Shown one piece after another: positions 13,514 through 59,832 of a stretch of DNA of 64,000 bases. How positions within the stretch are numbered: position 1 is the stretch's first letter; each line of letters begins with the position of its first letter. Source of the DNA: Nocardioides marmorisolisilvae (GTDB taxonomy: Bacteria > Actinomycetota > Actinomycetes > Propionibacteriales > Nocardioidaceae); assembly GCF_031656915.1 (NCBI RefSeq), contig NZ_CP134227.1, positions 868,001 through 932,000 of the forward strand. The letters run 5' to 3'. The notes under the pieces are model-generated. The model was not told the origin of the DNA. It did not search any database and worked only from the letters and a program-made list of their open reading frames with translations. Position numbers and translations under genes: made by a program.

Positions 13514-16309
13514 GTGACGACCTCGCAAGACGCAACCAACCACGAGCCGGCCCCGCAGATCCCACCCGTGATCCACGAAGGCCTGCCCACCCAGCTGCCG
13601 GACATCGATCCTGACGAGACCAACGACTGGATCGACTCCTTCGACGCCATGGTCGCCGACCGTGGCCGCGATCGAGCGCGCTATGTGATGCTGCGCCTGC
13701 TCGAGCGGGCGCGGGAGAAGCAGGTCGGCGTGCCCGCGCTGCGGAGCACCGACTACATCAACACCATCCCGCCCGAGCGCGAGCCCTGGTTCCCCGGCGA
13801 CGAGGACATCGAGCGCCGGATCCGGTCGTTCATCCGCTGGAACGCCGCGGTGATGGTCTCCGACGCCAACCGCAAGGGCCTGGAGGTCGGCGGTCACATC
13901 GCCACCTATCAGTCCAGCGCCAGCCTCTACGAGGTCGGCTTCAACCACTTCTTCCGCGGTCGGAGCCACCCCGGCGGCGGTGACCAGATCTACATCCAGG
14001 GCCACGCCTCCCCCGGCATCTACGCCCGCGCGTTCCTCGAGGGCCGGATGACCGAGGAGCAGCTCCTCTACTTCCGCCAAGAGGTGCAGCACGGGGTCGG
14101 ACGCGGGCTGTCGTCCTACCCCCACCCGCGGCTGATGCCGGACTTCTGGGAGTTCCCGACCGTCTCGATGGGCCTGACCGCGATGAACGCGATCTACCAG
14201 GCCCGGTTCAACCGCTATCTGCAGAACCGCGGCATCAAGGACACCAGCCAGCAGCGCGTGTGGGCGTTCCTGGGCGACGGCGAGATGGGCGAGCCGGAGA
14301 GCCTCGGCGCGATCGGCCTGCCCGCGCGCGAGGAGCTGGACAACCTCACGTTCGTCATCAACTGCAACCTCCAGCAGCTCGACGGGCCCGTGCGCGGCAG
14401 CGGCAAGATCATCCAGGAGCTGGAGTCGATCTTCCGCGGCGCCGGATGGAACGTCATCAAGGTGCTGTGGGGCCGCGAGTGGGACGAGCTGCTCGCCCGC
14501 GACGTCGACGGTGTCCTGGTCAACCAGATGAACAAGACACCGGATGGTGCGTTCCAGACCTTCTCGGTCGAGGACGGCGCCTACAACCGCGAGCACTTCT
14601 TCGGCCCCGACCCGAGGCTGCGGAAGATGGTCGAGCACATGAGCGATCGGCAGATCGAGAAGCTGCCGCGCGGCGGCCACGACTATCGCAAGGTCTACAC
14701 CGCCTTCGACGCGGCGACCAAGCACGTCGGGCAGCCGACGGTGATCCTCGCCCACACCATCAAGGGCTGGACGATCGACGCCCTCGAGGGCAAGAACGCC
14801 ACCCACCAGATGAAGAAGCTCAACAAGGACGACCTGAAGAAGTTCCGCGACCGGCTGTACCTCCCGATCAGCGACAAGGAGATCGAGTCGCGGTACGACG
14901 CCGACCACACCGCGCCGTTCTTCCACCCCGGGATGGACTCCCCCGAGATCGAGTACATGCTCGAGCGGCGCCGCCAGCTGGGCGGATTCATCCCCGAGCG
15001 CAAGGTCGACAGCAGGATCCTCAAGCTGCCCGGCGACGCGGTCTACTCCGAGCTCAAACAGGGCTCGGGCAAGAACAAGATCGCCACGACCATGGCGCTG
15101 GTCCGGCTGGTCAAGGACTGGATGAAGGACCCGGAGATCGGTCCGCGGATCGTGCCGATCGCCCCCGACGAGTTCCGAACCTTCGGGATGGACTCGATGT
15201 TCCCGAGCGCGAAGATCTACAACCCGCACGGTCAGACCTACGAGTCCGTCGACCGCAAGCTGCTGCTGAAGTGGCGGGAGGCCAAGGACGGCCAGATGCT
15301 GCACGAGGGCATCTCGGAGGCGGGTGCGATGTCGTCGGCGATCGCCGCGGGCTCGGCGTACTCGACCCACGGCGAGCCGATGATCCCGTTCTACATCTTC
15401 TACTCGATGTTCGGGTTCCAGCGCACCGGTGACTTCATCTGGGCGATGGCCGACCAGCTCGCGCGCGGCTTCCTGATCGGCGCCACCGCCGGGCGCACCA
15501 CCCTCACCGGCGAGGGCCTCCAGCACGCCGACGGCCACTCCCCGCTGCTCGCGGCCACCAACCCAGCGGTCGTGCACTACGACCCCGCACACGCCCACGA
15601 GATCTCGCACATCATGCAGGACGGGCTGCGCCGGATGTACGGCAGCAGCGAGGAGTTCCCACACGGCGAGGACGTCATCTACTACCTGACCGTCTACAAC
15701 GAGCCGGTCAGCCAGCCCAAGGAGCCCGACGACATCGACGTCGAGGGACTGCTCAAGGGCATCTACCGGTTCGCAGCGAGCGATCGGACGGAGGGCCCGC
15801 GGGTCCAGCTGCTCGCATCCGGAGTCGCCTTCCCTTGGATCGTCGAGGCCCAGCAGCTGCTCGCCGAGGACTGGGGAGTCGCTGCCGACCTATGGTCGGT
15901 GACGTCGTGGAACGAGCTCGCCCGCGACGCGGTCGACACCGAGCGGCTGGCGCTGCGCAATCCCGACGCGCCGGCGCGCCAGCCCTACGTGACCGGCAAG
16001 CTCGACGGCGTCGAGGGCCCGATCGTCGCGGTGACCGACTTCATGCGCGCCGTACCCCTGCAGATCGCACGCTGGGTGCCGGGTGACTTCCACGTGCTCG
16101 GAACCGACGGCTTCGGCTTCGCAGACACCCGGCCCGCCGCCCGACGGTTCTTCAACGTCGACGCCCAGAGCGTGGTCGTCCAGGTCCTCGCGGCACTCGC
16201 CGAACGTGGCGAGATCAAGCACGACAAGGTCATGGACGCGTTCACCAAGTATCGGATCGATGACCCGACCGCCGTCTCGGGCATCGCCCAGGAGGGTGGC
16301 GATGCCTGA
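13514..16309 (+). CDS. aceE: Pyruvate dehydrogenase E1 component, homodimeric type
   Basis: This 931-aa enzyme decarboxylates pyruvate with thiamine diphosphate and acetylates lipoyl-E2 in the pyruvate dehydrogenase complex. Length and sequence match the single-chain AceE of actinobacteria and gamma-proteobacteria. The ThDP/Mg motif begins at [10 protein letters not shown] (about residue 253) and ends at [11 protein letters not shown]. The glutamate-containing central domain has [22 protein letters not shown]. The C-terminal transketolase-like domain has [15 protein letters not shown]. The GTG start at 13514 follows a short leader containing GATGCAGGAG. The next gene overlaps its stop by 8 bp. 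No E2 or E3 gene is in the window. Confidence 0.96.
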
Positions 16310-44134: not shown

Positions 44135-44526
44135 GTGCTCGTTCTATCAGGACCTTGAGCAATGACAGTGCGTAGCCGGCGAGTGAGACCAGGGTGGCGA
44201 TGTCGAGTCCTTCCTCTGCCGGTTCATGGAGCACGGTGGCGACGTTGCCGATGCCGCCCCCGACCGCGAGTGTGAGGCGGGTATCTGAGCCTGGTGCGAC
44301 CTGGCGGTCGCGGACGTCGCGGGTGGTGCCGACCTGAAAGACCCAGGCACGTGGTGGCCTGCGCCGTGGAGCCAGGCGGCGCTGAGCCAACCCCACGCCA
44401 CCCGTAAACCAACTTCAGACGCGTGACACCAGACGTGCGCCAAGAAGGGGCACGCTGTTCTTGGTTGCGTCAAGTCGCTGTCCGTCCGTCTTGACGTGCG
44501 CTGGCCTGGCCGCGCAGACTGATCTG
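44135..44526. other. Junction region with no confirmed gene; possible promoter of the split PucR gene
   Basis: No convincing gene is seen. A minus-strand frame contains the orderly stretch DTRLTLAVGGGIGNVATVL and may be a decayed membrane-protein end. Just before the PucR start, TTGACG (44491-44496) and CAGACT (44515-44520) are spaced 18 bp and would place transcription at about GTG 44527, a leaderless arrangement. GTCAAG (44469) and CTTGAC (44490) form an inverted repeat overlapping the -35 box. Confidence 0.4.
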
Positions 44527-45127
44527 GTGCCGGTCACAGTGGCGGACCTCTTGGCATCGCCGCTCGGTCTGCTCGCTGTCTCCTCGACCTGTTCGGGCTG
44601 CGCGGCATCAATCAATTGGGTCTCCACGACGGAGCTCGAAGACCCAAGTCAGTTCCTCCGGCCCGGTGACCTTGTGCTGACCACGGGACTGAGCAACCGG
44701 ACCGCCGCGCAGCAATCGCGTTTCGTAGACAGCCTGGTTTCGGTGCCCGTCGCCGCCGTCGGTTACGGAATCGGGTTCATCGATGATCGTGTGCCCGCGC
44801 ACATGGTTGCGTTGGCCGAAGAGAAGGGCCTCGCACTGTTCGAAGTTCCAGTGACCAGTCCCTTCACCGCGGTTAGCCATTGGGTCGCTGAGGAACTCTA
44901 TTCACAGCGGTATGCGGCCGTGCAGCGCGCCACCGAGATTCAAGGCGAGTTGACCCGCGTTCTCTTGAGTGAGCTCGGTCTGGATCCGTTGCTGCTGAGA
45001 TTGAGCCAGATGACCAGGGCCGAATGCGCCGTCGTCGACCGGAGGGGGGCGATGCTCGCTGCGCAGCCACCAAGGTCTGAGTGGGAACCACTTGCGGAAC
45101 TGCGGGACATGGCCGTCGACGACTCAA

Positions 45128-46766
45128 CCCTGATCCACCGATGAGTGTCGGGTCGTGAGCGTGCCGTAACGCAGAGATGCCCTTGTGGGACGGGAGAATC
45201 GGGCTTGTCTAGGGTCCGAATCCGCCGCTCACGAAGGGCACCTCGTAAGTGAAACCTTCTCACACGATCCGCCCTGTCTTCGATGATCCCAACCTGGTGT
45301 CGGCGGCGGGCCTGGTTCCGGCTCTTCGGCTGGCTGAGTCCGCGGGTCTGTACGACCTGCTCGACGAGCTGAGCGTGTCCTCGGCCAACGCGGCCGCGAA
45401 GTCCGCGGCTGTGATTGGCGGGATGCTGGCCGGCGCGGACTCCATCGATGACCTCGACCTGCTGCGGCACGGCGGGATGAGCCGGTTGTTCGCCGGGGTG
45501 CGGGCGCCCTCGACGCTGGGCACGTTCCTGCGTTGCTTCACCCACGGCCACGTCCAACAGCTCGACAAGATCGGTGCCGACATCCTCGCCGGACTCGCCG
45601 TCCGGGTCCCCGACCTGATCGCCGGTTCCCACGGCCGCGAGGGGATCGCGTTCCTCGATGTCGACGACACCATCCGCGAGGTCCACGGGCACGCCAAGCA
45701 GGGCGCCGCGTTCGGCTACTCCGGGGTCCGCGGTCTGAACCTGCAACTGGCCACGATCAGCACCCCGCTGGCGGCGCCGATGATTGCCCGCGCCCGACTC
45801 CGCAAGGGCAACACCGCTTCCCACACCGGTGCCGGACGTCTGCTTGCCCAGGCGATCACCACTGCCCGTGCTGCCGGGGTGAAGGGCCAGGTGCTGTGCC
45901 GGGCGGACTCGGCCTACTACGGGTGGGCTTTCGTGGGCACCGCGATCCGCCACCGGGCCTGGTTCAGCGTGACCGCCCGGATGAACCCGGCCGTGGTGAA
46001 GGCGATCGCCAGCATCGAGGAGGACGCTTGGACGCCGATCGCCTACCCCAACGCCGTCTACGACGAGGCCGAGGACCGCTGGGTCAGCGACGCCGAGGTC
46101 GCCGAGATTCCGTTCACCGCCTTCACCGGCCGCCGCAAGGCCGAGCAGGTCGCGTGCCGGCTGGTCGTGCGCCGGGTCAAGCGACTGCAACCGCTGGCCG
46201 GCGACGGGACCGAGCAGGGCGAACTGTTCGCCGCCTACCGCCACCACGCGTTCATCACCAACAGCATCCTGTCGATGATCGAGGCCGATCAGCGTCATCG
46301 TGACCACGCCCTGGTCGAGCAAGTCATCGCCGAGCTCAAGGACGGGCCGCTCGCGCACTTGCCATCGGGCAAGTACGCAGCGAACGCCGCCTGGGTCGCG
46401 CACGCCGTGCTCGCGTTCAACATCGCCCGTGCCACCGGTGTCGCAGCCTCGCTGCGGACCGCACGCTGGGCCACCCTGCGCACCCGGATCATCAACATCC
46501 CCGCCCGGATCGCGTCCACCGGCAGGCGTCTGGTCGTGCACCTGCCACAACACTGGCCATGGGCCAGCAGTTGGGAGTTGTTGTGGTCGACCGCGACCGA
46601 CCCGCCAACCGCCGTCGCGACCTGACCACCCAGCCGGCGACGGCACTACCGAGGACCTCTACGTGGAAGAGCCGGCACCGGCCGGCGGGCCAGCCACGCC
46701 TCGCTCGCCGAAGCCGCCCCACCATCAGGAATTCAGAGATCCGAATTCACCGTCGGTGGATCCAGG
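45128..46766 (+). mobile_element. IS1380-type insertion sequence
   Basis: A 1,639-bp element has ends CCCTGATCCACCG (left, from 45128) and CCTGGATCCACCG (complement of the right end, finishing at 46766), matching 11 of 13. CTCAA is duplicated at 45123-45127 and 46767-46771. One transposase gene occupies 45249-46625. The clean duplication and intact gene point to a recent insertion. Confidence 0.88.
45249..46625 (+). CDS. IS1380-family transposase
   Basis: This 458-aa DDE transposase (DUF4277-like/IS4-group fold) has LDVDDTIREVHGHAKQG (first Asp, about residue 140), GQVLCRADSAYYGWAFV (second Asp, about 218), and a C-terminal half with TNSILSMIEADQRHRDHALV and EQVIAELKDG (catalytic Glu region, about 365). 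Length and order fit IS1380 members of actinobacteria. The GTG start at 45249 lies 121 bp inside the left end. Confidence 0.92.
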   Translation: MKPSHTIRPVFDDPNLVSAAGLVPALRLAESAGLYDLLDELSVSSANAAAKSAAVIGGMLAGADSIDDLDLLRHGGMSRLFAGVRAPSTLGTFLRCFTHGHVQQLDKIGADILAGLAVRVPDLIAGSHGREGIAFLDVDDTIREVHGHAKQGAAFGYSGVRGLNLQLATISTPLAAPMIARARLRKGNTASHTGAGRLLAQAITTARAAGVKGQVLCRADSAYYGWAFVGTAIRHRAWFSVTARMNPAVVKAIASIEEDAWTPIAYPNAVYDEAEDRWVSDAEVAEIPFTAFTGRRKAEQVACRLVVRRVKRLQPLAGDGTEQGELFAAYRHHAFITNSILSMIEADQRHRDHALVEQVIAELKDGPLAHLPSGKYAANAAWVAHAVLAFNIARATGVAASLRTARWATLRTRIINIPARIASTGRRLVVHLPQHWPWASSWELLWSTATDPPTAVAT

Positions 46767-47702
46767 CTCAAGCGGCATCACTGTTACCCCCATAGAGATC
46801 GAGCAGCTCGAGGTCGCCTATCTGTGCATGCGCCATTCAAGTGCACCCACGCCGGTTACGCCGTTCGTCGCCGGACTGATCGGGTTGGAGCTCGCGCGAC
46901 GCCAAGCGATCTTGACCGGGCGGCGCGAGCTTCTCGGCCAGGTGCTTGATGACGTCGTGCACGGTGTCATCGCAGGGCCGGAGGTCGGTCGCAAGCTGCG
47001 TGCTCACGGAATCGATGTCGCGGCGACGATCCGCGTCCTCGTGGGGAGCGTCGATGCTGACCCTCAGAAACTGCGCCGCGTGCCATGGAGTCTTGACGCC
47101 CTGCTCGATGAGGGAGATGACCAGATCCGGACAGGACTCGTGGACGACTGCGTCGTCGCGCTTGTCCCCGGCGACCGCGATGCCGCACCTCTCGCAGATC
47201 AACTTTGTCGTCAGCTGAACGGTCTCGGCGCGAACGCAAGCGTGGGCATCAGTCAGCCACACACGGGTGCCCGTGCAGTCAGGATCGGCTTCCACGAAGC
47301 ACGCAGCGCCCTTCAAGTCGGACGGGGCGTTCACGCCGCCGAAGGTCTCAGCGTTGCGAGCCTCCTCCTCAGCAGCGCCGACACTCCGGTTAAAGACGTG
47401 GCTCGCGCGACTCTCCAGCCGCTGCTGGACTATGACAAAGACCATGACGGAGCATTGATAAAGACGCTCTGTGCGTACTTTGCGTCTGGCTGCGCGCCGC
47501 AGTCGACAGCAGCCGAATTGGTAATTCACCGAAACGGTCTCCAATATCGCCTGCAGAAGATCGAGGCGCTCACGGGTCAGGATCTGTCCTCGTTTCACGA
47601 CCGCGTCCGGCTCTGGATGTCGCTCGCCGCCCTGGACCTGACTTGACGCCGTCATCTGGAGGCTCCACGACCATCTCGACGATCTAGGTCGCCTTCCACC
47701 GT

Positions 47703-49151
47703 TCAGCCTTCGAGCGCGTCCGCCAACGAAGACAACAGGTTGGTCGCGGCAGCTATGTCCTCCGTCAGGTCACGATCCGCGAGATCTGCAGGTAGATCGT
47801 CACAGATCGCGAGGGCGGCCGTGAGACGCGGACCGCATGGAGTGATCCGGGCAAGTCGAAGTGCGCGCACGGAGGTGACGAGCTCACAGGCAACGATGGA
47901 GGCATAGGACGAGCAAAGGTCGGCAAGCCGGTGGGCAGAAACACTCGCGAAGGAAGCGTTCTCCTCGACGTTGTGCGAGACGCTGACGACTTGGACACTC
48001 GCTGGATTCGCCGCAGCGCGCATCGACGCGACATGCCACGCTGCCAGGTATTCGAGCATCATCACCCCCGACGAACCCGGAGAGCCGTCGCCGAGATACT
48101 CCGGAACGCCTGTATTCGAGGTATTCGTCAGGAGACCGATCCGGCTCAATGCGAAGGTCGAGAGATGGGCCAACCCCATGGCAGCCGAGTCAAGCGCCAA
48201 CGCAAGATCAAGGTTGTAGAACCCACCGTGGTGGACGACAACCCCGGCTGACGCGTCGATCAGAGGATTCTCGACAGAGGCGTTGATCAGCTCCTCAGTG
48301 ATCCCGAGGACTTGTTGCCTGACGCCGAGGACGGCGCCGACGCTCGAGGGGAACACGCGCAGGGCGAAACTCTCCTGGACCCTTGGCGCGGCGTACACCT
48401 CGTCCCCAAGAAGGCTGGTCAACCAGCGGGCAACACGAATCGCGTCCGGCGTACGCAACGATGGGGTGGCCGCGTCGCTGAAGTGCTCCCGGTTTCCTCG
48501 AACGGCCAACCATGTCAAGGCCGCGACGACGGTGGACGCCTTGAGCATGCGCAGCATGCCGTGAATTGCCAGGGCGCTGTCGGCGAGAGTGAGGGCCGAA
48601 CTGCTTATCAGACCGATTGCATCACCTCGTGCCAAGGAACCCCGCCCCTGGGGCTCCGTACTCGACGACGGTGTCGCGAGCAGCAGCCCGACCGCCGCGA
48701 GTTGCGGCATATCCCCCGTTCCGAGTGCGCCACCCCAATAGATGCGCGGGTACTCGTTGCGATTGACGAGTTCGACCAACCGTCGACACGCATCCAGACT
48801 TACACCGGCTCCGCCCCTGGCCAGTTGGTTGATTCGGATGACCATCATGGCTCGGATCGTCTCCGCAGGCACCTCGCCGCCGCCCGACGTCGCGTGGCTG
48901 CGGAGCATGTTGAGGTCGAAAGACACGTCGTTGGGGACAGCCGTGCCTTTGAGCGCCCCAACTCCGGAGTTCCGTCCATAGATCACTCGTGCCCGTTGCT
49001 GGCTCAACAGCACCTCGCGGGAGTGCCGGATCCGCTCCTCGGCGGCTGCCGACAGGGTCACCTCGCGGGTCGAGCGAGCGAGGGCGACAAGTGTGTCCAC
49101 CGTCAACTGTGAGCCGGTGAGGGGCACGGCCCCATTCGGCCTGATGTCCAC
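47703..49151 (-). CDS. HAL/PAL-family amino-acid lyase with a non-canonical cofactor triad
   Basis: This 482-aa protein matches the histidine/phenylalanine ammonia-lyase fold throughout. It has the active-site Tyr in VIYGRNSGVGALKG (about residue 58), ENPLIDASAGVVVHHGGFYN (about 300), SRIGLLTN and PASVQVVSVSHNVEENAS (about 395). The position that forms the MIO cofactor in ammonia-lyases (Ala-Ser-Gly in G-A-S-G-D-L) reads ALGTGDMPQLA, i.e. Gly-Thr-Gly-Asp-Met (about residues 147-151), so standard MIO formation from Ser is not expected. Lyases of this fold that eliminate a better leaving group without MIO (ergothionase is the example I recall) are an alternative. It is last in a leftward transporter operon. 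GTG start at 49151. Confidence 0.82.
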   Translation of the reverse strand: MDIRPNGAVPLTGSQLTVDTLVALARSTREVTLSAAAEERIRHSREVLLSQQRARVIYGRNSGVGALKGTAVPNDVSFDLNMLRSHATSGGGEVPAETIRAMMVIRINQLARGGAGVSLDACRRLVELVNRNEYPRIYWGGALGTGDMPQLAAVGLLLATPSSSTEPQGRGSLARGDAIGLISSSALTLADSALAIHGMLRMLKASTVVAALTWLAVRGNREHFSDAATPSLRTPDAIRVARWLTSLLGDEVYAAPRVQESFALRVFPSSVGAVLGVRQQVLGITEELINASVENPLIDASAGVVVHHGGFYNLDLALALDSAAMGLAHLSTFALSRIGLLTNTSNTGVPEYLGDGSPGSSGVMMLEYLAAWHVASMRAAANPASVQVVSVSHNVEENASFASVSAHRLADLCSSYASIVACELVTSVRALRLARITPCGPRLTAALAICDDLPADLADRDLTEDIAAATNLLSSLADALEG

Positions 49152-49178: not shown

Positions 49179-50057
49179 CTACTTGCCCTGGTTCAGCCGA
49201 GGTGCGTCCAACTTCAGATCGCGAAGTCCGTACTTGTCCATGAGCCTGCCGTAGGTGCCGTTGGCCATGATCTTGGCAAGTGCACCCGCAAGAGCCTTTT
49301 GGAGCTGTACGTCGTCCTTCGGTGCCGCGATGCCGAGGAGTCCGCCGTATTCATATCGAAGCTTCGCGATTGTCAGCTTGGCGGCGGCTGATGTCTTCAT
49401 CGTGAAAGCTGCGGCAACGCTGTCGCTCATGAACCCGTCCACGCGATTGGTCGTAAGAGCCAGAAGTGCCGCCGGCGACCCTGGGAAGACTTTGACGGAG
49501 ATCGCCGGCTTCCCGTTGCTCACGCACTTCGCGGAAGCCGCTTGGAGCCAGCCGATCTCGAGGGTTCCAAGCTGCGCGGCGATGGAGTGCCCGCACAAGT
49601 CCGCCATCGATTCCGCAGCTACCAGTGAACTGCCTCGTGGGACCAACAAGACATCGAGTGTCTTCGCATAGTCAACGAAGTCGACCTTCTTGCGGCGGTC
49701 TGCCGAGTCACCCACGTCGGACATCGCAACGTCAAAGCGCCCAGCATCCAGGCCTGGGATCAGCGTATCGAATCCGATGACCTTGAAGTCGACCTTCACG
49801 CCGAGCTCCTTGCCGATGGCCCTGGCCAGCGAAGGATCTATTCCGATGATTTCGTTCGTGACCGAGTCTCGGTACTCGAACGGAGGATACGTCGGGTCGG
49901 TCGCGACCTGCAGCACGCCATCTGACAGCGATGCAGGTACCGCGACGTTCTTCGTGTTCGCCTTCGCACCCGCTGATTCAATGGCGCCACATCCGGTGGT
50001 CGCCATGATCGCGACCGCCGCCATCGCAGCAATCATGGCTCCTGAACTTCTTCTCAT
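49179..50057 (-). CDS. Polar amino-acid ABC transporter substrate-binding lipoprotein
   Basis: This 292-aa protein is a type-3 solute-binding protein. The signal peptide ends at a lipobox (ATTGC, Cys about residue 23), so it is lipid-anchored outside the membrane. The mature part has LQVATDPTYPPFEYRDS, IGIDPSLARAIGKELGVKVD, FDVAMSDVGDSADRRKKVDF and GFMSDSVAAAFTMK. These are the usual signatures of binding proteins for glutamate/histidine/arginine-like ligands. It lies 27 bp from the lyase gene and 103 bp from the ATPase gene, strongly suggesting that its ligand is the lyase substrate or a related compound. Confidence 0.9.
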   Translation of the reverse strand: MRRSSGAMIAAMAAVAIMATTGCGAIESAGAKANTKNVAVPASLSDGVLQVATDPTYPPFEYRDSVTNEIIGIDPSLARAIGKELGVKVDFKVIGFDTLIPGLDAGRFDVAMSDVGDSADRRKKVDFVDYAKTLDVLLVPRGSSLVAAESMADLCGHSIAAQLGTLEIGWLQAASAKCVSNGKPAISVKVFPGSPAALLALTTNRVDGFMSDSVAAAFTMKTSAAAKLTIAKLRYEYGGLLGIAAPKDDVQLQKALAGALAKIMANGTYGRLMDKYGLRDLKLDAPRLNQGK

Positions 50058-50159: not shown

Positions 50160-50966
50160 TCAGCTGAGCACCTGCGATAAGAACGCCCTCGTTCTCTCTT
50201 CTCGAGGCTGCGAGATGACGGTGCGCGGGTCCCCAGACTCGACGATCCTGCCGCGGTCCATGAAGACGAGGGTGTCTGCCACTTCGCCGGCAAAGCCGAT
50301 CTCGTGGGTAACCACGATCATCGTCATACCGGTACTAGCCAGCTCCTTCATCACCGCGAGTACCTCACCGACCAGTTCAGGGTCGAGGGCACTGGTTGGC
50401 TCGTCGAAGAGCATGAGCTTGGGTTCCATTGCCAACGCTCGGGCGATCGCGACTCGCTGCTGCTGCCCACCAGATAGCTGCACTGGATAGGCTTCGAGCT
50501 TGTCGGCCAGGCCGACCCGCTCCAGCAGGTCCACCGCAGCACCGCGCGCATCCGCCTTCGATTTCCGCTTGAGAAGCACAGGGGCAAGACAGACGTTCTC
50601 GGTGACGGACATGTGCGGGAACAGGTCGAAGTGCTGGAACACCATCCCGATATCCGCGCGTTGTCTCCGCAGGTCGCGTTCAGGCAGTTCGTGCAATTTG
50701 CCGCCGCGCTCGATATATCCGACGAGCTCTCCGTCAACCGACATTTGTCCGCCGTCGATCTTGTCGAGATGATTGACACAACGCAAGAACGTGGACTTGC
50801 CCGACCCGGATGGTCCGATGATGCAAACGACCTCACCCCGGGCCACCTCGAGAGAAACCGAGTCCAATACGTGCAGGGAACCAAAGAACTTGTGCACATC
50901 GTGTGCTCGCATCATGGGGTCGTGGCTGCGGGATTCGAACTTGTGAGCTACGACTTCCGGCGCCAT
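50160..50966 (-). CDS. Polar amino-acid ABC transporter ATP-binding protein
   Basis: This 268-aa ATPase of the GlnQ/HisP type has Walker [18 protein letters not shown] (about residue 50), Q-loop [14 protein letters not shown], signature [17 protein letters not shown], Walker [15 protein letters not shown] and switch His in [14 protein letters not shown]. Its ATG at 50966 overlaps the permease stop (ATGA). It powers import with the neighbouring permease and binding protein. The N-terminus could also be placed about 16 residues later. Confidence 0.93.
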
Positions 50967-51931
50967 CACTGGACCGCGACCTTCGGACGCCTGGTCGAGA
51001 ATACATTTCTCAGCACAGCCCACTTTCCAGTGGCCACCGTCCGAGAAGTTCCTCGCCCGAAGCGCCTTTCGAGGTACTGTTGTCCCAGCGTCAGGACCGA
51101 GGTGGCGACCAGGTACCAGATGCTCACCGCGATCAGAAGCGGAATAGTCTCATATGTCCTCGTGTAGATCGCCTGGGCCGAGTAGAGCAATTCCGAAAGT
51201 GCAATGATTGAAACGATCGAGGTCGTTTTCAACATGCTGATCACGTCATTCCCTGTTGGAGGCACGATGACCCGCATGGCTTGAGGTAGAACGATCCAGC
51301 GCATGGTTCGCAGTCTGCTAAGCCCCAACGACGTCGCGGCGTATGTCTGGCCCTCCGGGACCGAAAGGATCCCAGATCTCACGATCTCCGCCATGTATGC
51401 GCCCTCGTTGAGAACAAGCGTCAGAACCGCGGCCACAAAGGGCGTCACCAGGACATTAACATTTACCAGGAAGAACTCAGGCCCGAATGGAATTCCCACC
51501 GCTACCTTGGGATACAGCGCCGACAAGTTGAACCAGAAGATCAATTGAACCAGGACCGGAGTTCCTCGGAAGAATGCAATGTATGCGCCCGCCAGCCCGC
51601 TGGCCAATCTGCTGGGAGAAAGTCGGATCACCGCCAGCACAATCCCCAACGCGATGCCGATCGCCATGGAGACAACAGTCAGCACGATCGTCATCCGAAG
51701 ACCCCTCAAGATCTGCGGCGCGAACAAGTACTCGTTGACCGTCCCCCACTGATAGCGCGGATTCGTGACCAAGGTGGTGACCAGGCCAGCTGCCAGGACT
51801 GCACTCACCACCATGAGGACGCGACGCCCAGGATGTGGGGCCGGGACCACTGCGAATCTCTTCGCTTCGTTCCAACTTGTGGACGTTCCGCTCGCAACGC
51901 GAGCCCCACGTATCGGTTCAATCGTCGTCAT
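50966..51931 (-). CDS. Polar amino-acid ABC transporter permease
   Basis: This 321-aa membrane protein has a cytoplasmic N-terminal extension (about 35 residues), about six transmembrane segments and the EAA loop [20 protein letters not shown] (about residue 215), which docks on the ATPase. [14 protein letters not shown] is a HisM/GlnP-type motif. One permease gene is present, so it probably forms a homodimer. It is the first gene of the leftward transporter/lyase operon. ATG at 51931. Confidence 0.92.
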
Positions 51932-52137: not shown

Positions 52138-53073
52138 TCAGATGTCCAGCTCTAGCGTTTGGCCGGTGCATCGGGAGACGCAGATCATCATCGTGTTTTC
52201 TGCTGCCTGCTCGTCCTTGGTCAGCAGCGAGTCTCGGTGGTCGATTGACCCCGCCATCACCTTCGTCTCGCAGGTGCCGCAGATTCCCTCACGGCAGGAA
52301 CTGATTGTTTCGATTCCGGCTTGCTCGAGGGCCTCCAAGATGCTTTGGTCCGAGCGGACCTCCACCGTCGTTCCGCTCCTTCGCGCCACCACCTGGAAGG
52401 CGAAGCGCTCGACTTCCGGGGCGACGGCTGCAGAGAATCTCTCGACGTGCAGATTCGACATGCCGAGGTCAGCGCAGACGTCGGTAACGGCCCTGATGAG
52501 GGGCGGGGGCCCGCACACGTGAACGGACGTTTCCGGTTCGACCGCCGTCAGTCGCTCGCGCAGGGGGAGCAGACCGAACTCATCCTCCGGAAGCACCGTC
52601 GCGTGCTCTCCGTGGCGGGACAGCTCGTCGAGGAACGCCATTGAATCCCGCCGGCGACCGCCGTACAGGAGGTGCCAACGAGCGCCTCGCACACCAGCCG
52701 CTGCCAGCTTGGGCAGGATGGGGGTGATGCCGATTCCGCCGGCGACGAAGTAGTAGGACATCGCGTCATCGAGTCCGAAATGGTTCCGTGGCTCGGAAAG
52801 CCAGATCAAGTCACCGGGGCGCAACGACTCATGTATAAACGCCGAACCACCGCGACTGAGCGGTTCGCGAAGAACCGCAATACGCCAGTTCGTCTGGTCA
52901 CCGCAAAGCGAGTACTGACGGACGATCCCGCCGGGGAGATGGACGTCGACATGTGCTCCCGGCTCCCAGTGGGGAAAGACTGCTGGGGCGACTGGAGCGA
53001 ACTCGATGCTGAGGACGTCCACGCTCTCCAGTCGCATCTGGCGTACGACCGCCTTGATCGATGCGGTACTCAC
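52138..53073 (-). CDS. VanB-type oxygenase reductase (FMN/NAD with C-terminal 2Fe-2S)
   Basis: This 311-aa reductase of the phthalate dioxygenase reductase family passes electrons from NADH to a Rieske oxygenase. It has an FMN-binding barrel (GAHVDVHLPGGIVRQYSLCG, about residues 38-57), an NAD domain (YYFVAGGIGITPILPKL, then HVCGPPPLIRAV), and a C-terminal plant-type ferredoxin domain with ISSCREGICGTCETKVMAG (three cysteines) plus the fourth Cys in MICVSRC. The GTG start at 53073 overlaps the stop of the preceding small gene (GTGA). It probably serves one or both Rieske oxygenases encoded upstream. Confidence 0.93.
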   Translation of the reverse strand: MSTASIKAVVRQMRLESVDVLSIEFAPVAPAVFPHWEPGAHVDVHLPGGIVRQYSLCGDQTNWRIAVLREPLSRGGSAFIHESLRPGDLIWLSEPRNHFGLDDAMSYYFVAGGIGITPILPKLAAAGVRGARWHLLYGGRRRDSMAFLDELSRHGEHATVLPEDEFGLLPLRERLTAVEPETSVHVCGPPPLIRAVTDVCADLGMSNLHVERFSAAVAPEVERFAFQVVARRSGTTVEVRSDQSILEALEQAGIETISSCREGICGTCETKVMAGSIDHRDSLLTKDEQAAENTMMICVSRCTGQTLELDI

Positions 53074-53552
53074 GGCATCCACCGGACGGGCTTTCCGTCT
53101 CGACGACGGAGCCATCCGATCAGCATCGTGGCCGGAGTGTCGCCAGTCACGGCTAAGCGGATCTGGGCCGGGTCGGGGCCCTCGACCACGAGGGTGTCTC
53201 CAGCCTCGACCATCCTGGCGTCTTCGACGACGCCTCCGTCACGCGGAACGATGACGACCAGTTCACTGACTTGTCGGCGGAGAATCAGCGGCTCGTGCGG
53301 GGGTACACGCGTGGTGGCGAGTTCAGCCGTGAGCATGCGCTCGTTGAATCGGAGGCACACTCTCTCGGGTACATCATCGAAGTCGACCGTGAGCAGACCG
53401 ACTTCCGCAGCGTCACATGTTGTGGCTGGGGAGACGAACGACAAGTCCCAGAGCCAAGCCTCTCGGCCGGGCGTGTCCGGACCGCCTACCAGGAACTCAC
53501 GGGCAGGCCGACCGCCAACTTCGCGTGTGCCAGCGCGGACCAGGAGCCTCAT
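53070..53552 (-). CDS. 160-aa protein of unknown function, possibly cupin-like (HutD/Ves-like at best)
   Basis: The protein is beta-rich and has no membrane segment or cysteine cluster. Landmarks are AWLWDLSFVSPATTC (about residue 32), ERVCLRFNERMLTAEL and ELVVIVPRDGGVVEDARMV, then DTLVVEGPDPAQIRL. The W-x-W-x-x-S opening and the G-D-T-L-V-x-E-G end faintly recall HutD/Ves proteins that accompany histidine degradation, but the similarity is too weak to name it. It overlaps the Rieske stop by ATGA and the reductase start by GTGA, so all three are co-translated and it belongs to the pathway. Confidence 0.7.
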   Translation of the reverse strand: MRLLVRAGTREVGGRPAREFLVGGPDTPGREAWLWDLSFVSPATTCDAAEVGLLTVDFDDVPERVCLRFNERMLTAELATTRVPPHEPLILRRQVSELVVIVPRDGGVVEDARMVEAGDTLVVEGPDPAQIRLAVTGDTPATMLIGWLRRRDGKPVRWMP

Positions 53553-54565
53553 TGCCGCTCGCGATTCTCAGCCTCGATCATCTGACGAAGCATCCGTCGG
53601 GCCCTTGCGACGCCAGCATCCTGAGCGATCAGTCGATCGGGACCGCCGGCGTTTCCGGCATCCAGCACCGCTTGCTGCTTTTCGAGTGCGAATCTGTCCT
53701 CTTCGAGAACCTTCTCCAAAGACGCTCGCATGATGCCGTTGATCTGCTCGTCGCCGATCGCGAAGTCCCGAACGTTGGCGTAGAAGTAGTGGCAACTGGT
53801 TTCCGATTCCGGGGTGATCGCATTCAGCACCTCGAGGTGGTAGCCATCCTTCCGAGATGCACCGGGCTGACCGACACCACAGTGGATGACGTGCAGATTC
53901 GGAAGGTTGAACTCCGTGGTGTGCCACCGATCCACCGGCGGCTTGACCCCCATTGCTGTGACATACAGGTCCGAAGGATGGCACCGCGGCATGAAACGGT
54001 CGACGACGACGGCCGCCGCGGTCACCTCGACAGTGATGCCGTTTGTGAAGACAGCTTCGTCGCCGATGGAACTTTCGTGGAGAAAGGCCTCATGGGTCAG
54101 GTCGAGAAGATTGTCGTGCAGGAGTCCAGAACTGCATTCGTACCGGTTGGTGAAGCGCACCCCGTCCCACTCGGGATCAGATAGCCAGGTCGTCGCAGGA
54201 ATACTTTCGCGATCGGCGTTGTCCGGGTCACCCGGCCATATCCAGACCCATCCGTCTCGCTCCACCACCGGGTATGCACGCACGTGGGTGTTCCCCGGAA
54301 TGACGTCTTGTCCAGGCACACGCACGCACACTCCGTCGGCCCCGTACTCGAACCCGTGGTATCCACAGCGGAGGTGGCCGTCGATCACGGTGCCGGCCGA
54401 CAGCGGATATTGGCGATGCGCGCAGGCGTCGTGCAACGCGATGGCTTCGCCGTCAGACCGGAAGAGCACAACAGGCTTGCCGCAGATCGTCCGGGAAATC
54501 GGCTTGCCGGTGATCTCCTCCGACCAGGCTGCGACGTACCAGGTCTCGGTGATGTACTGCGACAT
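53549..54565 (-). CDS. Rieske non-heme iron oxygenase (VanA-like)
   Basis: This 338-aa oxygenase alpha subunit has the Rieske cluster in CAHRQYPLSAG and LRCGYHGFEYG (Cys-x-His and Cys-x2-His, about residues 46-69), and the mononuclear iron ligands in NLLDLTHEAFLHESS (two His, about 160-175). It is most like vanillate O-demethylase and related O-/N-demethylases rather than ring dioxygenases, because it lacks a beta subunit. ATG at 54565 follows GGAGGCC. It receives electrons from the VanB-type reductase encoded next to it. The substrate is probably a methylated compound handled by this cluster. Confidence 0.92.
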   Translation of the reverse strand: MSQYITETWYVAAWSEEITGKPISRTICGKPVVLFRSDGEAIALHDACAHRQYPLSAGTVIDGHLRCGYHGFEYGADGVCVRVPGQDVIPGNTHVRAYPVVERDGWVWIWPGDPDNADRESIPATTWLSDPEWDGVRFTNRYECSSGLLHDNLLDLTHEAFLHESSIGDEAVFTNGITVEVTAAAVVVDRFMPRCHPSDLYVTAMGVKPPVDRWHTTEFNLPNLHVIHCGVGQPGASRKDGYHLEVLNAITPESETSCHYFYANVRDFAIGDEQINGIMRASLEKVLEEDRFALEKQQAVLDAGNAGGPDRLIAQDAGVARARRMLRQMIEAENRERQ

Positions 54566-54811
54566 CAGGCCTCCACAGGATCTCTTCGACTTCTTCAGCC
54601 GTATGACACTCTCGAGCCGGTGGCACGGGGGTTGTGCTGGATCGAGCAGCGCACTCTCAGGCGCGCCGAGTGCGCCGAGTCTATGAACGGGACGACCGCC
54701 AATGGGATGGACGATCGGCCGGGGTGTAGCGCGAACGGTGTGCGACCGCACACCACCCTGCGGGTCCATGCCTGCGGCGCAGGGCGGCCGGGAGCGGCCG
54801 GCGCCCGAGCG

Positions 54812-56329
54812 CTACGTGATCCCAAGAGCCGTGAGGGCCAGCCAGAACCGCACCTGGTCTTCGAATGAAGTCAGGTCGTGCCGAGTGAGAGCCTCAATCT
54901 TGCGAAGGCGGTACTGGAGCCCGTTGCGGTGGACGTTGAGCCTTGTTGCGGCGACATGGGGGGTGCAGCCGGATCTGAGATACGTGGAGAGTGTCACGAC
55001 AAGGGAGCCTGCGTGCTTCTTGTCGTAGTCCAGCAACGGTTGCAGAGTGGCCTGTGCTACCTCTCTCACGGGCGTGTCCACACTGTTGAGCAAGAGGCTG
55101 GTGACGTCGAGGCCTTCAGCGATTCTGATGCCCGCGCCACGCGACATCGCATCGTGCGCCTCGTGGAAGCCGATCCGGATGGCACGCGTCCCGCTGTGTG
55201 GTTGACCTACCCCCACTGACGCCCCGCGGCCAACGCTGCTTAGTTGGCGGTGGAACTTGTGGGCAATCGTCGACGCGTCGTCTGTTGCGGGAATGAGGGC
55301 GATGATCATGTCGCCGATGAGGGCGGTGTGGATTCGGTCGCCTTCGTCCCTGAAAAGGTCGGAAAGGTTCCAAGGAATCGACCGAAGTTGCGTCGGGCCA
55401 GCATCTGCGGTCCCGACCAGGACGCGGTACGTCGAAGTCAGCCCAACACCGTGTGCCTGCAGCTTGCGTGCGATCTCAGGCCCCGCGAGAACCTCATGAA
55501 TGGCGTCGTCGAGCACCTCGCCGAGTAGTTCACGCCGCCCAGTGAGGATCGCCTGTCGCCGCGCGAGCTCGAGCCCGATAAGCCCCGCGACGAATGGTGC
55601 GACCGGGGTGGGCATCGCAAAATGCCGCAACGCCAGGTAGGCGACCACAACACGCTCGATCTCAATCGGCGTCAGGGTGACCTCACTGCCGATCACGCCA
55701 GCCCTCGCGCGCATATCCGACAACGGCTCCCACTCGACCGACGCCGGCTCGGAGGCAAGTAGGTCTCCACGCCGATCGATGACTGCGCATTCACTCCCCG
55801 TCAACTGGCTGAGGCGCAACAAGATCGGCTCCAGCCCTTGCTCCCCCAGAAGGGCACGCGTCAACTCAGCCTGAATCTCAGTTGCTCTTTGCACTGCGGC
55901 GTAACGGGATGCATAGAGTTCCTCGGCTACCCAGTGACTCACGGCGGTGAACGGTGTTGTTACCGGGACCTCGAAGAGTGCGAGTCCACCTCGCTCGGCC
56001 AGGTGCACCAAGTGTTCCGGAATGTGCTGGTCGATGAGTCCCACGCCGTACCCAAGGGCCACCACCGGCACTGAGAGCAAGCTGTCGACGAACGCGGCCT
56101 GCTGTTCGCCTGTTCTGTTGTTGATCCCCGTCGTCAGGACGAGGTCACCGGCTCGCAAGAACCGGCTGGGGTCGTGCAGCTCAGTCGTTGAGACCCAGTT
56201 GATTGGCATGTCGGTGTGCTGGCACCACGACGAGATTGGTTCCAGTGAGAGCGGAGCCCCGAGGAGGCTGCGGAGTGTTACGAACGCCAGCGAGTCCCTC
56301 TGGCCCATCCGAGCACGCCGCAAGGCCAC
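54812..56329 (-). CDS. PucR-family transcriptional regulator
   Basis: This 505-aa regulator has the N-terminal PucR ligand domain (INWVSTTELHDPSRFLRAGD, PFTAVSHWVAEELYASRYA) and a middle GGDEF-like region. The C-terminal helix-turn-helix contains ATRLNVHRNGLQYRLRKIEA. It is a close paralogue of the regulator split by the IS1380 element at 44527-47646. It lies 5 bp after the second Rieske gene and 246 bp before the first, in the same direction, so it probably senses the substrate and controls the cluster. GTG at 56329 or ATG at 56308 may be the start. Confidence 0.9.
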   Translation of the reverse strand: MALRRARMGQRDSLAFVTLRSLLGAPLSLEPISSWCQHTDMPINWVSTTELHDPSRFLRAGDLVLTTGINNRTGEQQAAFVDSLLSVPVVALGYGVGLIDQHIPEHLVHLAERGGLALFEVPVTTPFTAVSHWVAEELYASRYAAVQRATEIQAELTRALLGEQGLEPILLRLSQLTGSECAVIDRRGDLLASEPASVEWEPLSDMRARAGVIGSEVTLTPIEIERVVVAYLALRHFAMPTPVAPFVAGLIGLELARRQAILTGRRELLGEVLDDAIHEVLAGPEIARKLQAHGVGLTSTYRVLVGTADAGPTQLRSIPWNLSDLFRDEGDRIHTALIGDMIIALIPATDDASTIAHKFHRQLSSVGRGASVGVGQPHSGTRAIRIGFHEAHDAMSRGAGIRIAEGLDVTSLLLNSVDTPVREVAQATLQPLLDYDKKHAGSLVVTLSTYLRSGCTPHVAATRLNVHRNGLQYRLRKIEALTRHDLTSFEDQVRFWLALTALGIT

Positions 56330-56333
56330 AACG

Positions 56334-57383
56334 TCATGCTCGCAGCAGGGAGACGACGGGGAACCCGTGGTGGTTCAGAGATCGGCGCAGGTTGAGGCCG
56401 ATCGAGTCGAACCGCATGTGCAACTCGGCGGCCAGGTCCAACGGGAGCCACTCGGGACGCTGCCCCTCGACGATGAATCGGTCGGGGCTGAACACTGCGT
56501 TCTCGCGCCGTTCGATCTCGTCAGCGGAGACCTGGAGACTGTCTGGCACGCCAAAAGCCCAGAAGACGGTGGTCTCCGCGACCGTCCGTGGTGCCGCCGA
56601 TACAAAGAGAATGTACTCGTCACCCTTCGTGACCCCGCGAATCCAGGCCGTAAAGGGAACGTCGTAGTGGTAGTCGTACTCGACGTCGACGACCGCGAAA
56701 TCCTGGCCCTCAGGTGGCTTTCCCCAAGGGTCACGCGCCAGGTAGGGGACCTTTGCATCGATGTGGAGCATGTCCGGACTGGTTCTCACCGAGGTGGGCA
56801 CCACGCTCGAGACGTCGGGGTTTCCGAACGTGTCTGCGTGGATGTAACCGAAGTGGGCGACGTCCAAGAAGTTCTCGACCATGCGGGTCGCTTGACAGTG
56901 CCAATCGCTTGGGGTGCCCACATGGAAGGTCCAGGCCGCTTCGCCGAAGTTCGGACAGGGCGGCACGTCAGCTTCCGCCTCACCTGACGAGGCAAGGCGG
57001 GTCCAGATCAAACCGTTCTGCTCACGGACCGGGTGAGCGCCAACGCGCGCCTTCGACGGGATCTTGGTCTCTGGTGGAAGTTGCGGAATGCGAACACACG
57101 CTCCGTCAGATCCGTATTCCCAGCCGTGGTAGGGACATGCGAGGTTTCCAGAACCAGTGACCTCTCCATCGGAGAGCATCGTGCCGCGGTGCAGACACAA
57201 ATTATCCAGCACCGTCACCTGGCCGTGATAGTCGCGCCAGACCACGAGATCCTCGCCCAGAAGGCGACTCGCGAGTCTCCCCCCGATGGGGACGTCGACC
57301 GAGCGTGCGACGGGGAGCCAAAACCTGCCCGCAGCGTCGTAGAACTCATCATGCACCTCGGGCGGCGCCGGCTGGATACGCAC
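56334..57383 (-). CDS. Rieske non-heme iron oxygenase (second)
   Basis: This 349-aa Rieske oxygenase has CLHRGTMLSDGEV and LACPYHGWEYG (Cys-x-His, Cys-x2-His, about residues 66-90), and the iron ligands in NFLDVAHFGYIHADTFG (about 182-198). It is only distantly similar to the first Rieske protein (different spacing and core), and closer to the PaO/phenoxybenzoate-type oxygenases. GTG at 57383 follows GGAGAG. It has no reductase or ferredoxin gene of its own, so it likely shares the VanB-type reductase. Confidence 0.91.
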   Translation of the reverse strand: MRIQPAPPEVHDEFYDAAGRFWLPVARSVDVPIGGRLASRLLGEDLVVWRDYHGQVTVLDNLCLHRGTMLSDGEVTGSGNLACPYHGWEYGSDGACVRIPQLPPETKIPSKARVGAHPVREQNGLIWTRLASSGEAEADVPPCPNFGEAAWTFHVGTPSDWHCQATRMVENFLDVAHFGYIHADTFGNPDVSSVVPTSVRTSPDMLHIDAKVPYLARDPWGKPPEGQDFAVVDVEYDYHYDVPFTAWIRGVTKGDEYILFVSAAPRTVAETTVFWAFGVPDSLQVSADEIERRENAVFSPDRFIVEGQRPEWLPLDLAAELHMRFDSIGLNLRRSLNHHGFPVVSLLRA

Positions 57384-57836
57384 AATCTCTCCTACCAAGT
57401 TTGCGTTACATGGAGGTCTGGCTTCGATGCTAGGGCCATCCTTTCTCCAGACGTATGGGCATCTGCCCGGCTTCCGAGGCGCCAACTGTGCAGGGACCTA
57501 CTTCGGCTGGTCCGATGCGGCGAATCGTTCCAGCGACGCAGTGTCACAGCGGCAGACGTACACCGAGCTCCGGATGCGCCCAGCTCCTCGGTGAGCACTC
57601 TCGATACTCACGACGGCGACATGGCCCATGTCGCCGACCGCGGCGGTGCGCTCGGGTTGAGCCAGCGGCTCAAAGAGGTCATTGGAACGGAGCCAAGCGC
57701 ACCATGGATGGCTTCGAGGAACGTGGGGCGAGCATCCCGATCAGTCGTCAGCGGCTGGTGCAGACGAAGTTCAAGGCGCCCGCGCCGGCAAAAGTGGCAC
57801 AAAAGTGTCACTAGGATCGTTCGGACCCGGAACGGG
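57384..57836. other. Non-coding stretch left of the tRNA-Asn fragment
   Basis: About 450 bp are crossed by open frames on both strands, but none has a recognised motif or a good start. No repeat was found. It marks the boundary between the catabolic cluster and the probable integrated element. Confidence 0.5.
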
Positions 57837-58350: not shown

Positions 58351-59832
58351 CTACCGAATACGGGTGGGCAACTCGGATGCGTCGCCGACTGACAACACGG
58401 AGTACGACCGAAGCCCGCAGACGTGGCACTCAGGGTCAATATGCGGTTGTTGAACGACGAGCTGTGGCTGACCAGCAGCTACAGGTTTGCTGCGGATAAT
58501 CCGGTACCCACTTGCCGGGCGACCGAGTCCGGTGGCAAATTGCATGAAGTCGTTGACAGCGATCCCGACTGCCATCGCGTTGAGGGTGATCACGCTGGGT
58601 GCGTCGATGCCCGGCTCATCGACGTATCGCTGGTTCTGTCGCTGCTCGACAGAGGCCACCGATTCTTCGGCGAGTTTGGACATGTTGATCAGGTCGTTGC
58701 AGCGCAGGCATCCCGGCGCGGTCCCGAGCGCACGAACTGCACCAAAGACATCCAGAACATCGCCGCTTGCGGAGTCGATCACGACCTTCGAGCCGACCTG
58801 CAGGGTGGGAACGAGGTATTGGTAGGCGATCTGGTTGACGACTTCTCGCGACAGCATTGTGTCGGCGGCGAGGAAAATAAAGTCGCACCCAATCAGCGAG
58901 CGAGCAATCGAATCGTCGGCGACATCGCCTCGGATTGCGGTTATGCGCGCGTCGGGATTGGCTCCGTGGATCACACGTGCGGCGAGGCGGACCTTTGACG
59001 TCGGCTGGTTGCGCCCGAAGCGCCGGGCAAGGCGCCCGAAAGGACCGTTCCCCCAATGACCAATGGCATCGCTGAGGCGCGCCTCAGGCAGGCGCGGGAG
59101 GTTGGTGACGCTGACATGATCCGGGTCAATCAGGACGAACTCACCAACACCAAGTCGGCTCAGTGCCTGCACCACCAACATCCCGACACCGCCTGCTCCG
59201 ACAACTCCGACGCGCAGGTTGCTGAGGATGCTTTGCCCGGCGGGACCGAAGATTAGTGCTTGGCGCTCGTATCGCTCGAGTATCTGCTCGGTTGCGGAGT
59301 CAGACTCGCGTGAGTCGCCGTCGGTGAGTCGCGTCAGGCCCTCGCCGACCACAGTAGTCACGTACAACGGTAGGCGCCGGCCGTCAGTCAGCCAGATGTC
59401 GCCTGCGATGGCATTCTTGGCAAGCACCAAGCCACCCACGGGAGAACCATTGATGGCGAGCAGCGTCGGGTAGCCACGCTCGTGAGACGCGAGGTCGGAA
59501 CCGGAGAATCCGACACGGTCAGATCCGCCGTGGTTGTGTGCCGCGAGGTAAACCAGGCCTGCATCGTGCGCCGCACGAAGTTGGCGGGTGACAAAAGCGC
59601 CGTCGAGGAGGCGGTAACCCCTTGTGCCAGGCAGATAGTCGCGGCCGTCTTGCGCCGGAACGACTTCGCGTACCACCAGTGTCAGACGAGTACCCACCTG
59701 CGCTTGCCCGCACAGCAAGGCAGCGCCGTGCTCGTCGCTATCGCCCGGGAACAGGTGACCGACGAGCCGGTCCCAGTCGGCGCCGCGAAACCGCAACTCG
59801 ACTGACTCCACTGGTGGCCGGATTCCGCTCAT
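58351..59832 (-). CDS. JAMM protease fused to an E1-like (ThiF) adenylyltransferase
   Basis: This 493-aa two-domain protein combines a deubiquitinase-like and an activating enzyme. Residues about 10-160 form a JAMM/MPN domain with Glu in EHGAALLCG and the metal motif AHNHGGSDRVGFSGSD (His-x-His-x8-Ser-x2-Asp). Residues about 190-490 form a ThiF/E1 domain with GVVGAGGVGMLVVQAL (nucleotide loop), LIDPDHVSVTNLPRLPEA, and zinc pairs CLRC (about 388) and CHVC (about 475). In MoeB-type E1 proteins the catalytic Cys lies between these pairs; here that stretch reads DAPSVITLNAMAVG, without Cys. Its ATG overlaps the E2-like gene stop (ATGA). It is predicted to adenylate and later cleave the ubiquitin-like protein encoded upstream. 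Confidence 0.9.
   Translation of the reverse strand: MSGIRPPVESVELRFRGADWDRLVGHLFPGDSDEHGAALLCGQAQVGTRLTLVVREVVPAQDGRDYLPGTRGYRLLDGAFVTRQLRAAHDAGLVYLAAHNHGGSDRVGFSGSDLASHERGYPTLLAINGSPVGGLVLAKNAIAGDIWLTDGRRLPLYVTTVVGEGLTRLTDGDSRESDSATEQILERYERQALIFGPAGQSILSNLRVGVVGAGGVGMLVVQALSRLGVGEFVLIDPDHVSVTNLPRLPEARLSDAIGHWGNGPFGRLARRFGRNQPTSKVRLAARVIHGANPDARITAIRGDVADDSIARSLIGCDFIFLAADTMLSREVVNQIAYQYLVPTLQVGSKVVIDSASGDVLDVFGAVRALGTAPGCLRCNDLINMSKLAEESVASVEQRQNQRYVDEPGIDAPSVITLNAMAVGIAVNDFMQFATGLGRPASGYRIIRSKPVAAGQPQLVVQQPHIDPECHVCGLRSYSVLSVGDASELPTRIR

Follow-up and report, generated by a model that had tools for sequence, protein, structure and literature searches.

MIO-dependent enzymes of the HAL/PAL fold form their electrophilic cofactor from an Ala/Cys-Ser-Gly triad. 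Two papers report that a PAL variant in which MIO cannot form was left with practically no activity on L-Phe (PMC3903478) and that a MIO-less PAL variant lost all hydroamination activity on two aryl-acrylates (PMC12535398), the latter paper adding that a MIO-independent route had been suggested earlier. Ergothionase is reported in PMC13405746, which cites Maurer 2019, to be without MIO, and PMC11089744 describes how its activity can be assayed at 311 nm. The enzyme from T. denticola (PDB 6s7j/6s7q) has the HAL fold without the MIO triad; its loop, S-S-I-G-E-G-D, carries a one-residue deletion, Ser stands at the position of HAL Asn195, and the Tyr, Ser-His, Gln, Arg, Phe and Glu of HAL are kept. 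Maurer is said to have described, in 2019, four catalytic residues as essential in ergothionase.

The one-residue loop deletion, the Ser at the Asn195 position and the kept HAL residues recur in P0001, a protein encoded in a 64,000-nucleotide stretch of the Nocardioides marmorisolisilvae genome (the window). The two proteins are, on the other hand, only 20-21% identical, and they differ in that ergothionase has Glu where P0001 has Thr145, has no His at 307-308, and carries Asn at the position of HAL Thr197, as do 104 of 112 relatives of P0001, where P0001 itself has Ser; the P0001 locus, moreover, is without ergothioneine-degradation genes. Family models group P0001 and its relatives, called GT[GA]D proteins here after their loop, with histidine, phenylalanine and tyrosine ammonia-lyases despite the missing cofactor triad. 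What is new here is how widely the clade extends among actinobacteria, that it is linked to histidine degradation, and that the window holds a separate Rieske-linked cassette. Among the open-access papers searched, we recognized none that describes a hercynine lyase or the GT[GA]D proteins of actinobacteria as a group.

A shortened loop replaces the MIO triad

47703..49151, minus strand: P0001, predicted MIO-free HAL/PAL-family lyase of 482 aa (GTG start; Pfam; AlphaFold2 mean pLDDT 90.5; orthologue in the Nocardioides MAG L078, 70% identical)
48717..48719, minus strand: codon ACG of Thr145, in the loop G144-T145-G146-D147 (sequence read)

The sequence-only reading had taken P0001 for an ammonia-lyase homologue with Gly-Thr-Gly in place of Ala-Ser-Gly. 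Its family assignment stands, since the Lyase_aromatic fold extends over the full length of the protein according to Pfam (279 bits, residues 16-447), the AlphaFold2 model and VIA-align. No NCBIfam model scored over its cut-off, HutH reaching 209.5 bits against 539.15 and the PAL, TAL and aminomutase models listed also remaining below theirs. The letters had likewise been read correctly, the Thr codon ACG being preceded by GGA for Gly144 (48720-48722, minus strand). As for the replacement itself, the triad is indeed missing, but by a deletion plus Thr and not by a one-for-one swap: the loop is one residue short, with Thr-Gly left and the Ser gone. The phmmer alignment with P. putida HAL leaves one position of the loop empty ('galg.tgd' versus 'gsvgasgd'), MAFFT, run on 29 and on 147 sequences, confirms this gap, and the first Gly of Gly-Thr-Gly is the conserved Gly that precedes the triad. 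The loop thus reads GSxG-[AC]SG-D in MIO-type enzymes (23 CSG relatives and one ASG relative) and GxxG-TG-D in P0001, and a residue-for-residue replacement of the triad is ruled out by these alignments.

The active-site Tyr, the NPL motif (as ENPL) and the late Glu are all present, as had been stated. By alignment, P0001 keeps the HAL positions Tyr58, Ser85-His86, Gln259, Arg265, Phe311 and Glu396, which we take to correspond to HAL Tyr53 (position counted in the phmmer alignment), Ser82-His83, Gln277, Arg283, Phe329 and Glu414, respectively; presumably, Ser183 and Phe262 of P0001 stand in for HAL Asn195 and Tyr280. The HAL numbers 280 and 329 match mutant names among the structures listed by Foldseek.

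Conservation of the loop among relatives

Decay or a frameshift of P0001 is ruled out by its full-length open reading frame, by the orthologue in L078 with its equally short Thr loop, and by the relatives, throughout which that loop is found; the earlier judgment that this is no simple decay was therefore sound. Loci were fetched with peptide patterns lying outside the loop, and among the best 80 of 566 confirmed candidates, the best match carried the short Thr loop G..GT[GA]D in 80 of 80 loci, so that neither a chance event nor a sequencing error can account for it. When the fetched loci were searched with P0001 by phmmer (E<=1e-10), 146 rows were obtained; the motif was present in all 117 rows scoring at least 140 bits and in none of the 29 lower rows, which comprised 23 CSG, one ASG, four GSVG-Y and one GSMG-QSD sequence.

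Removal of near-duplicates left 112 distinct members of the GT[GA]D group. As the group was chosen by its loop, Thr145 and Asp147 occur in 112/112 by construction, the other positions being independent. Tyr58, His86, Gln259, Arg265 and Glu396 are each kept in all 112, as are Ser183, where MIO enzymes have Asn, and His307, where they have Ser; position 311 is Phe in 108 members and Trp in 4, and Thr145 is followed by Gly in 102 and by Ala in 10. P0001 and L078 carry Asn394, where 110/112 members have Gly, and Ser185, where 104/112 have Asn. The group thus resembles P0001 in the short Thr loop, Ser183, His307, Tyr58, Arg265 and Glu396, its aligned members being 33-41% identical to P0001, L078 apart. 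The hosts include Streptomyces, Lentzea, Kribbella, Actinoallomurus, Arthrobacter, Mycobacterium yunnanensis and Saccharopolyspora, and with a threshold of E<=1e-60, a match to P0001 is present in 15 of the 294 genomes sampled from the family and in 19 of the 394 sampled from the class, the own genome being counted among them. The GT[GA]D proteins form a genuine lineage that is well conserved and lacks the MIO triad.

Comparison with ergothionase and MIO enzymes

Ergothionase 6s7j ranked first with the AlphaFold2 model of P0001 both in Foldseek (E 2.9e-26) and in VIA-align (Z 43.1, rmsd 2.2, 471 aligned), where MIO enzymes followed in a near-tie (Z 42.0, 41.6 and 41.0), so that the fold alone is not decisive for P0001. 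In phmmer, ergothionase came tenth (9.5e-25), behind nine MIO-type chains, some of them mutants (7.7e-34 to 1.8e-29); HAL 7tqr scored 7.7e-34 and P. putida HAL 1.9e-32. HutH (L001 of the own genome; P. putida 1b8f/1gkj) shares with P0001 the fold and most substrate-binding positions and scores better with it than ergothionase does, but it has [AC]SG in the loop, and L001 is 25% identical to P0001.

A tree was built from 70 of the 147 rows, thinned by hand, Streptomyces most strongly. The GT[GA]D rows formed one group of 56 (SH-aLRT 100), which was joined at SH-aLRT 99 by ergothionase and by the GSMG-QSD protein L018, both on long branches; either of them was still sister to the GT[GA]D group at SH-aLRT 99 when the other long branch was removed, long-branch effects being possible. 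Within the clade, P0001 and L078 grouped together on a long branch whose inner placement was weak (SH-aLRT 22-66). The sequence-only reading had proposed alignment to ergothionases as a check and had named clustering with characterised His/Phe/Tyr ammonia-lyases sharing the same triad as an outcome that would speak against it. The alignment gave a mixed answer, the loop deletion and the change of Asn195 to Ser being common to both proteins while the identity is low and the phmmer rank tenth, whereas in the tree, the sister of the group is ergothionase and not the ammonia-lyases, long branches notwithstanding. Ergothionase may serve as a good guide to the mechanism of P0001, with P0001 itself only a candidate for membership.

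Gene neighborhoods of the relatives and the host genome

The context of the relatives was surveyed in 97 loci with up to 10 kb per side, 48 of them named Streptomyces; the set leaves out the window and L075 (GSMG-QSD type), several loci end at contig ends, and at least two contigs are counted twice (L060/L115 and L074/L087). A betaine-type (ProX/OpuC) ABC importer was found in 63/97 loci and urocanate hydratase HutU in 48/97, with one or the other in 74 and both in 37; HutI and/or HutF occurred in 29/97 and a canonical HutH in 6/97, while 23/97, some cut by contig ends, had neither importer nor HutU. Among the 49 loci not named Streptomyces (some may be), 26 had the importer, 12 HutU, 30 either and 8 both. 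Counted by group, 11 of the 37 genus-level labels, some of which are single genomes, include HutU and 20 include the importer permease. The sole contrast set for these counts consisted of the seven Rieske loci introduced below, where the betaine importer binding protein, permease and HutU were found in 0/7 (1e-6) and ATPase cross-matches in three.

HutU proteins scanned from 4 of the 48 loci (L057, L062, L063 and L068), like that of the own genome, exceeded the HutU cut-off but neither of the two thiourocanate-type ones, as canonical urocanate hydratases do, and the two importer binding proteins scanned matched ProX/OpuC-type betaine binders, with the ergothioneine binder EgtUC at a lower score; a description of EgtU is given in PMC9732360. 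Because betaine importers and HutU adjoin the lyase genes, the simplest reading suggested by the neighborhoods is that the GT[GA]D relatives convert histidine betaine (hercynine) to urocanate and trimethylamine. As a separate observation, the binding protein at L062 13554-14693 (plus strand) matches ProX-type chains with its C-terminal half first and its N-terminal half second, as if permuted or in two pieces.

The own genome is one contig of 4.23 Mb with a completeness of 100, and at E<=0.001 it holds two members of the family, P0001 and a canonical HutH (L001) at 3.11 Mb with the loop GSLGCSGD (610.7 bits), about 1.6 kb downstream of which, on the same strand, lies urocanate hydratase (889.6 bits as HutU). 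That P0001 might be the only HutH of the genome gone astray is ruled out by this separate gene. The only match to thiourocanate hydratase in the genome was the HutU protein, at 643.8 bits against a cut-off of 930. EgtD had no match there, and 0 of 14 control genomes passed the cut-off in the same search; going by the missing match, hercynine would not be made in this host by the EgtD route. No match to the dimethylamine monooxygenase heme subunit PF11927 was found in the own genome.

The Rieske-linked cassette of the window

44461..47646, plus strand: PucR-family regulator 1, split by an insertion sequence into the pieces 44461-45144 and about 46767-47646 (Pfam for both)
49179..50057, minus strand: substrate-binding protein of an ABC importer, family 3, amino-acid type (Pfam SBP_bac_3, 111.4 bits; L078 76%)
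50160..51023, minus strand: ATPase of the ABC importer, polar amino acid/ectoine type (NCBIfam EhuA with 333.5 bits, short of the cut-off of 345.4; L078 84%)
50966..51931, minus strand: ABC importer permease, amino-acid type (NCBIfam HEQRo_perm_3TM, 76.2 bits, cut-off 42.2; L078 81%)
52138..53115, minus strand: electron-transfer protein of the phthalate-dioxygenase-reductase type, NAD-binding plus 2Fe-2S (Pfam; L078 63%)
53070..53552, minus strand: conserved 160-aa protein (L078 counterpart ORF 11297-11779, minus strand, by tblastn)
53549..54769, minus strand: Rieske oxygenase A, VanA_C (Pfam; 3gb4, dicamba O-demethylase DdmC, 1.5e-60; L078 76%)
54812..56329, minus strand: PucR-family regulator 2 (Pfam PucR, GGDEF_2, HTH_30; L078 regulator 63%)
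56334..57485, minus strand: Rieske oxygenase B (Pfam; 6ick, methylxanthine N1-demethylase NdmA, 1.4e-27)

The importer, the reductase, the 160-aa protein, the two Rieske oxygenases and a PucR regulator accompany the lyase gene both in the window and in L078, and neither the window cassette nor L078 has a betaine-type importer or hut genes. The solved chains matched by the substrate-binding protein are amino-acid binders, for example of Gln, Arg and His. Through their likeness to DdmC and NdmA, Rieske A and B belong to the Rieske oxygenase family, and their partner is related to phthalate dioxygenase reductase (2pia, 1.7e-46), the P450-reductase fusions 6kbh and 6laa scoring better. The true start of Rieske A probably lies downstream, at MSQYITETWY, as judged from its L078 counterpart, and the counterpart of Rieske B in L078 is a 393-aa ORF (14531-15712, minus strand; compared by eye). 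The 160-aa protein has no Pfam or NCBIfam match, and among solved structures it matched antibody-type chains only (one at 1.5e-6), which we take as spurious. A scan for promoters and terminators gave 1 promoter-like site against 1.3 expected and 0 terminator-like sites against 2.8 expected.

Both fragments of PucR regulator 1 match a single regulator of L078 (73% and 77%), which is unsplit there and divided in the window by an insertion sequence at 45127-46766 with a transposase at 45249-46625 (Pfam DDE_Tnp_1_4). The ends of this element carry the 10-bp inverted GATCCACCGA (45132-45141 and 46753-46762), with CTCA on both sides, as read by eye. Outside the cassette, a ThiF/E1-like protein with a long N-terminal part is encoded at 58351-59832 (minus strand).

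The 97 loci were screened for the genes of the cassette with the proteins encoded in the window as queries. In the 96 loci other than L078, the Rieske oxygenases, the binding protein, the 160-aa protein, the reductase and the PucR regulators had no relatives (1e-10); permease relatives alone were present, in four Lentzea loci. Rieske A matched 18 other genomes, and of the seven neighborhoods fetched from these, two (L179 and L182, same genus) contained relatives of the same ABC importer and no lyase. In both, a protein with glyoxalase-family domains lies near Rieske A, and these two neighborhoods hint at an aromatic substrate for the cassette. Because Rieske A and the importer occur there without the lyase, the importer and the Rieske gene may be a unit devoted to methylated aromatic compounds, with the lyase as an addition. 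The Asn394, the Ser185 and the Rieske cassette of P0001 and L078 mean that the substrate of the relatives is not simply transferable to P0001.

Proposed chemistry and alternative explanations

We consider it somewhat probable that P0001 is a MIO-free lyase of the HAL/PAL fold, which would take a good amine leaving group, trimethylamine being the most likely one, off the alpha carbon of an amino-acid betaine with an imidazole-type or other aromatic ring and so yield the aryl-acrylate. Elimination without MIO is likely, as judged from the loop and its relatives: trimethylamine departs readily, for which reason the electrophilic MIO would be unneeded, and an ordinary ammonia substrate is unlikely for P0001, given the loss of activity in MIO-less PAL variants. 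In the proposed mechanism, Tyr58 would act as the base that takes the beta proton of the substrate, the substrate ring would be held and polarized on the His86/Glu396 side, Arg265 would bind the carboxylate, and the tertiary amine would leave without help from MIO. Thr145, sitting where ergothionase has Glu, plausibly has a catalytic role. The substrate of the relatives would be hercynine, while P0001 may, on weaker grounds, have shifted to another amino-acid-like and probably further methylated compound that could enter through the amino-acid-type importer and have its methyl groups handled by the two Rieske oxygenases. The idea of an ergothionase-like loss of a good leaving group had been voiced from the sequence alone, and it holds in part: the missing triad, the top structural match, the tree sister and the neighbors of the relatives favor it, whereas the tenth place of ergothionase in phmmer and the want, at the P0001 locus, of a betaine-type importer and, in the genome, of a thiourocanate hydratase over the cut-off do not.

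More tentatively, and with clearly lower confidence, the window cassette might represent an undescribed pathway in which a MIO-free lyase and two Rieske demethylases break down an N- or O-methylated aromatic or imidazole amino acid other than ergothioneine, while the clade at large would be a widespread, unrecognized histidine-betaine lyase feeding hercynine to histidine degradation, with Thr145 taking on some of the function of the lost MIO. If the MIO-free reading is true, several consequences follow: (i) actinobacteria have a broad, unassigned route releasing trimethylamine from amino-acid betaines; (ii) working without MIO, as ergothionase does, is a general solution reached with several loop designs, one residue being lost in some and three in GSVG-Y; and (iii) these designs provide a direct test of when the fold works without MIO.

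P0001 could instead be an ordinary member of the clade, a hercynine or ergothioneine trimethylamine-lyase with the Rieske cassette as a mere neighbor. The protein keeps the HAL-type Ser-His pair and the Glu, it is nested in a clade of hut- and betaine-importer-linked genes, and the host's own HutH and HutU could take up the urocanate; yet the importer, Rieske oxygenases, reductase, 160-aa protein and PucR regulator are kept alongside it in L078, its long separate branch is only weakly placed within the clade, residues 185 and 394 are altered, and the genome is without a thiourocanate hydratase over the cut-off, which together make this reading rather unlikely in our estimation. An atypical cofactor, also raised from the sequence alone, would require the loop G-T-G to cyclize to a Thr-derived (ethylidene) imidazolone resembling MIO. 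X-Thr-Gly is formally a tripeptide of the cyclizing kind, and the retention of the short Thr loop in 80/80 of the best 80 loci out of 566 indicates that the loop matters. The one-residue shortening, on the other hand, implies another geometry, ergothionase has Glu at the Thr position and reportedly no MIO (PMC13405746), and in 10/112 distinct relatives, the Gly needed for cyclization is replaced by Ala, which would hinder it and because of which we disfavor such a cofactor as highly improbable.

The loss of the triad would also be compatible with a protein that has given up lyase activity for another role, which might lie in binding or regulation or in a different reaction carried out by this fold. 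We regard this as improbable, since Tyr58, Arg265, Gln259, His86 and Glu396 are invariant among the distinct relatives, P0001 is full length with a confidently predicted fold, and a cassette of catabolic type is conserved with it. MIO-free elimination by P0001 thus remains the reading that we prefer.

Other loops without the triad

Further HAL-family proteins without the triad were noticed in the searches. L018 (G013, 1501-2820), from a genome of the same genus, has the GSMG-QSD loop, a third type; its best solved match is T. denticola ergothionase (3.5e-41), and Met is aligned at the position of HAL Glu414. The GSVG-Y loop, in which three residues are lost, was read in L056 (7986-9518 of Klebsiella pneumoniae plasmid CP110561.1) and also in L059; on the Klebsiella plasmid, the lyase lies in a hut cluster with hutU, hutI, hutC, hutD, a deiminase and an ABC importer. 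Altogether, 193 Klebsiella plasmid records match P0001, the loop having been read in one of them (CP110561.1). A relative on a Rhizobium plasmid adjoins a betaine-type importer, a CoA-transferase and an enoyl-CoA hydratase. In Saccharopolyspora shandongensis (L111) and Sciscionella sediminilitoris (L130), a GSVG-Y lyase and a GTGD lyase are encoded within one 21-kb stretch.
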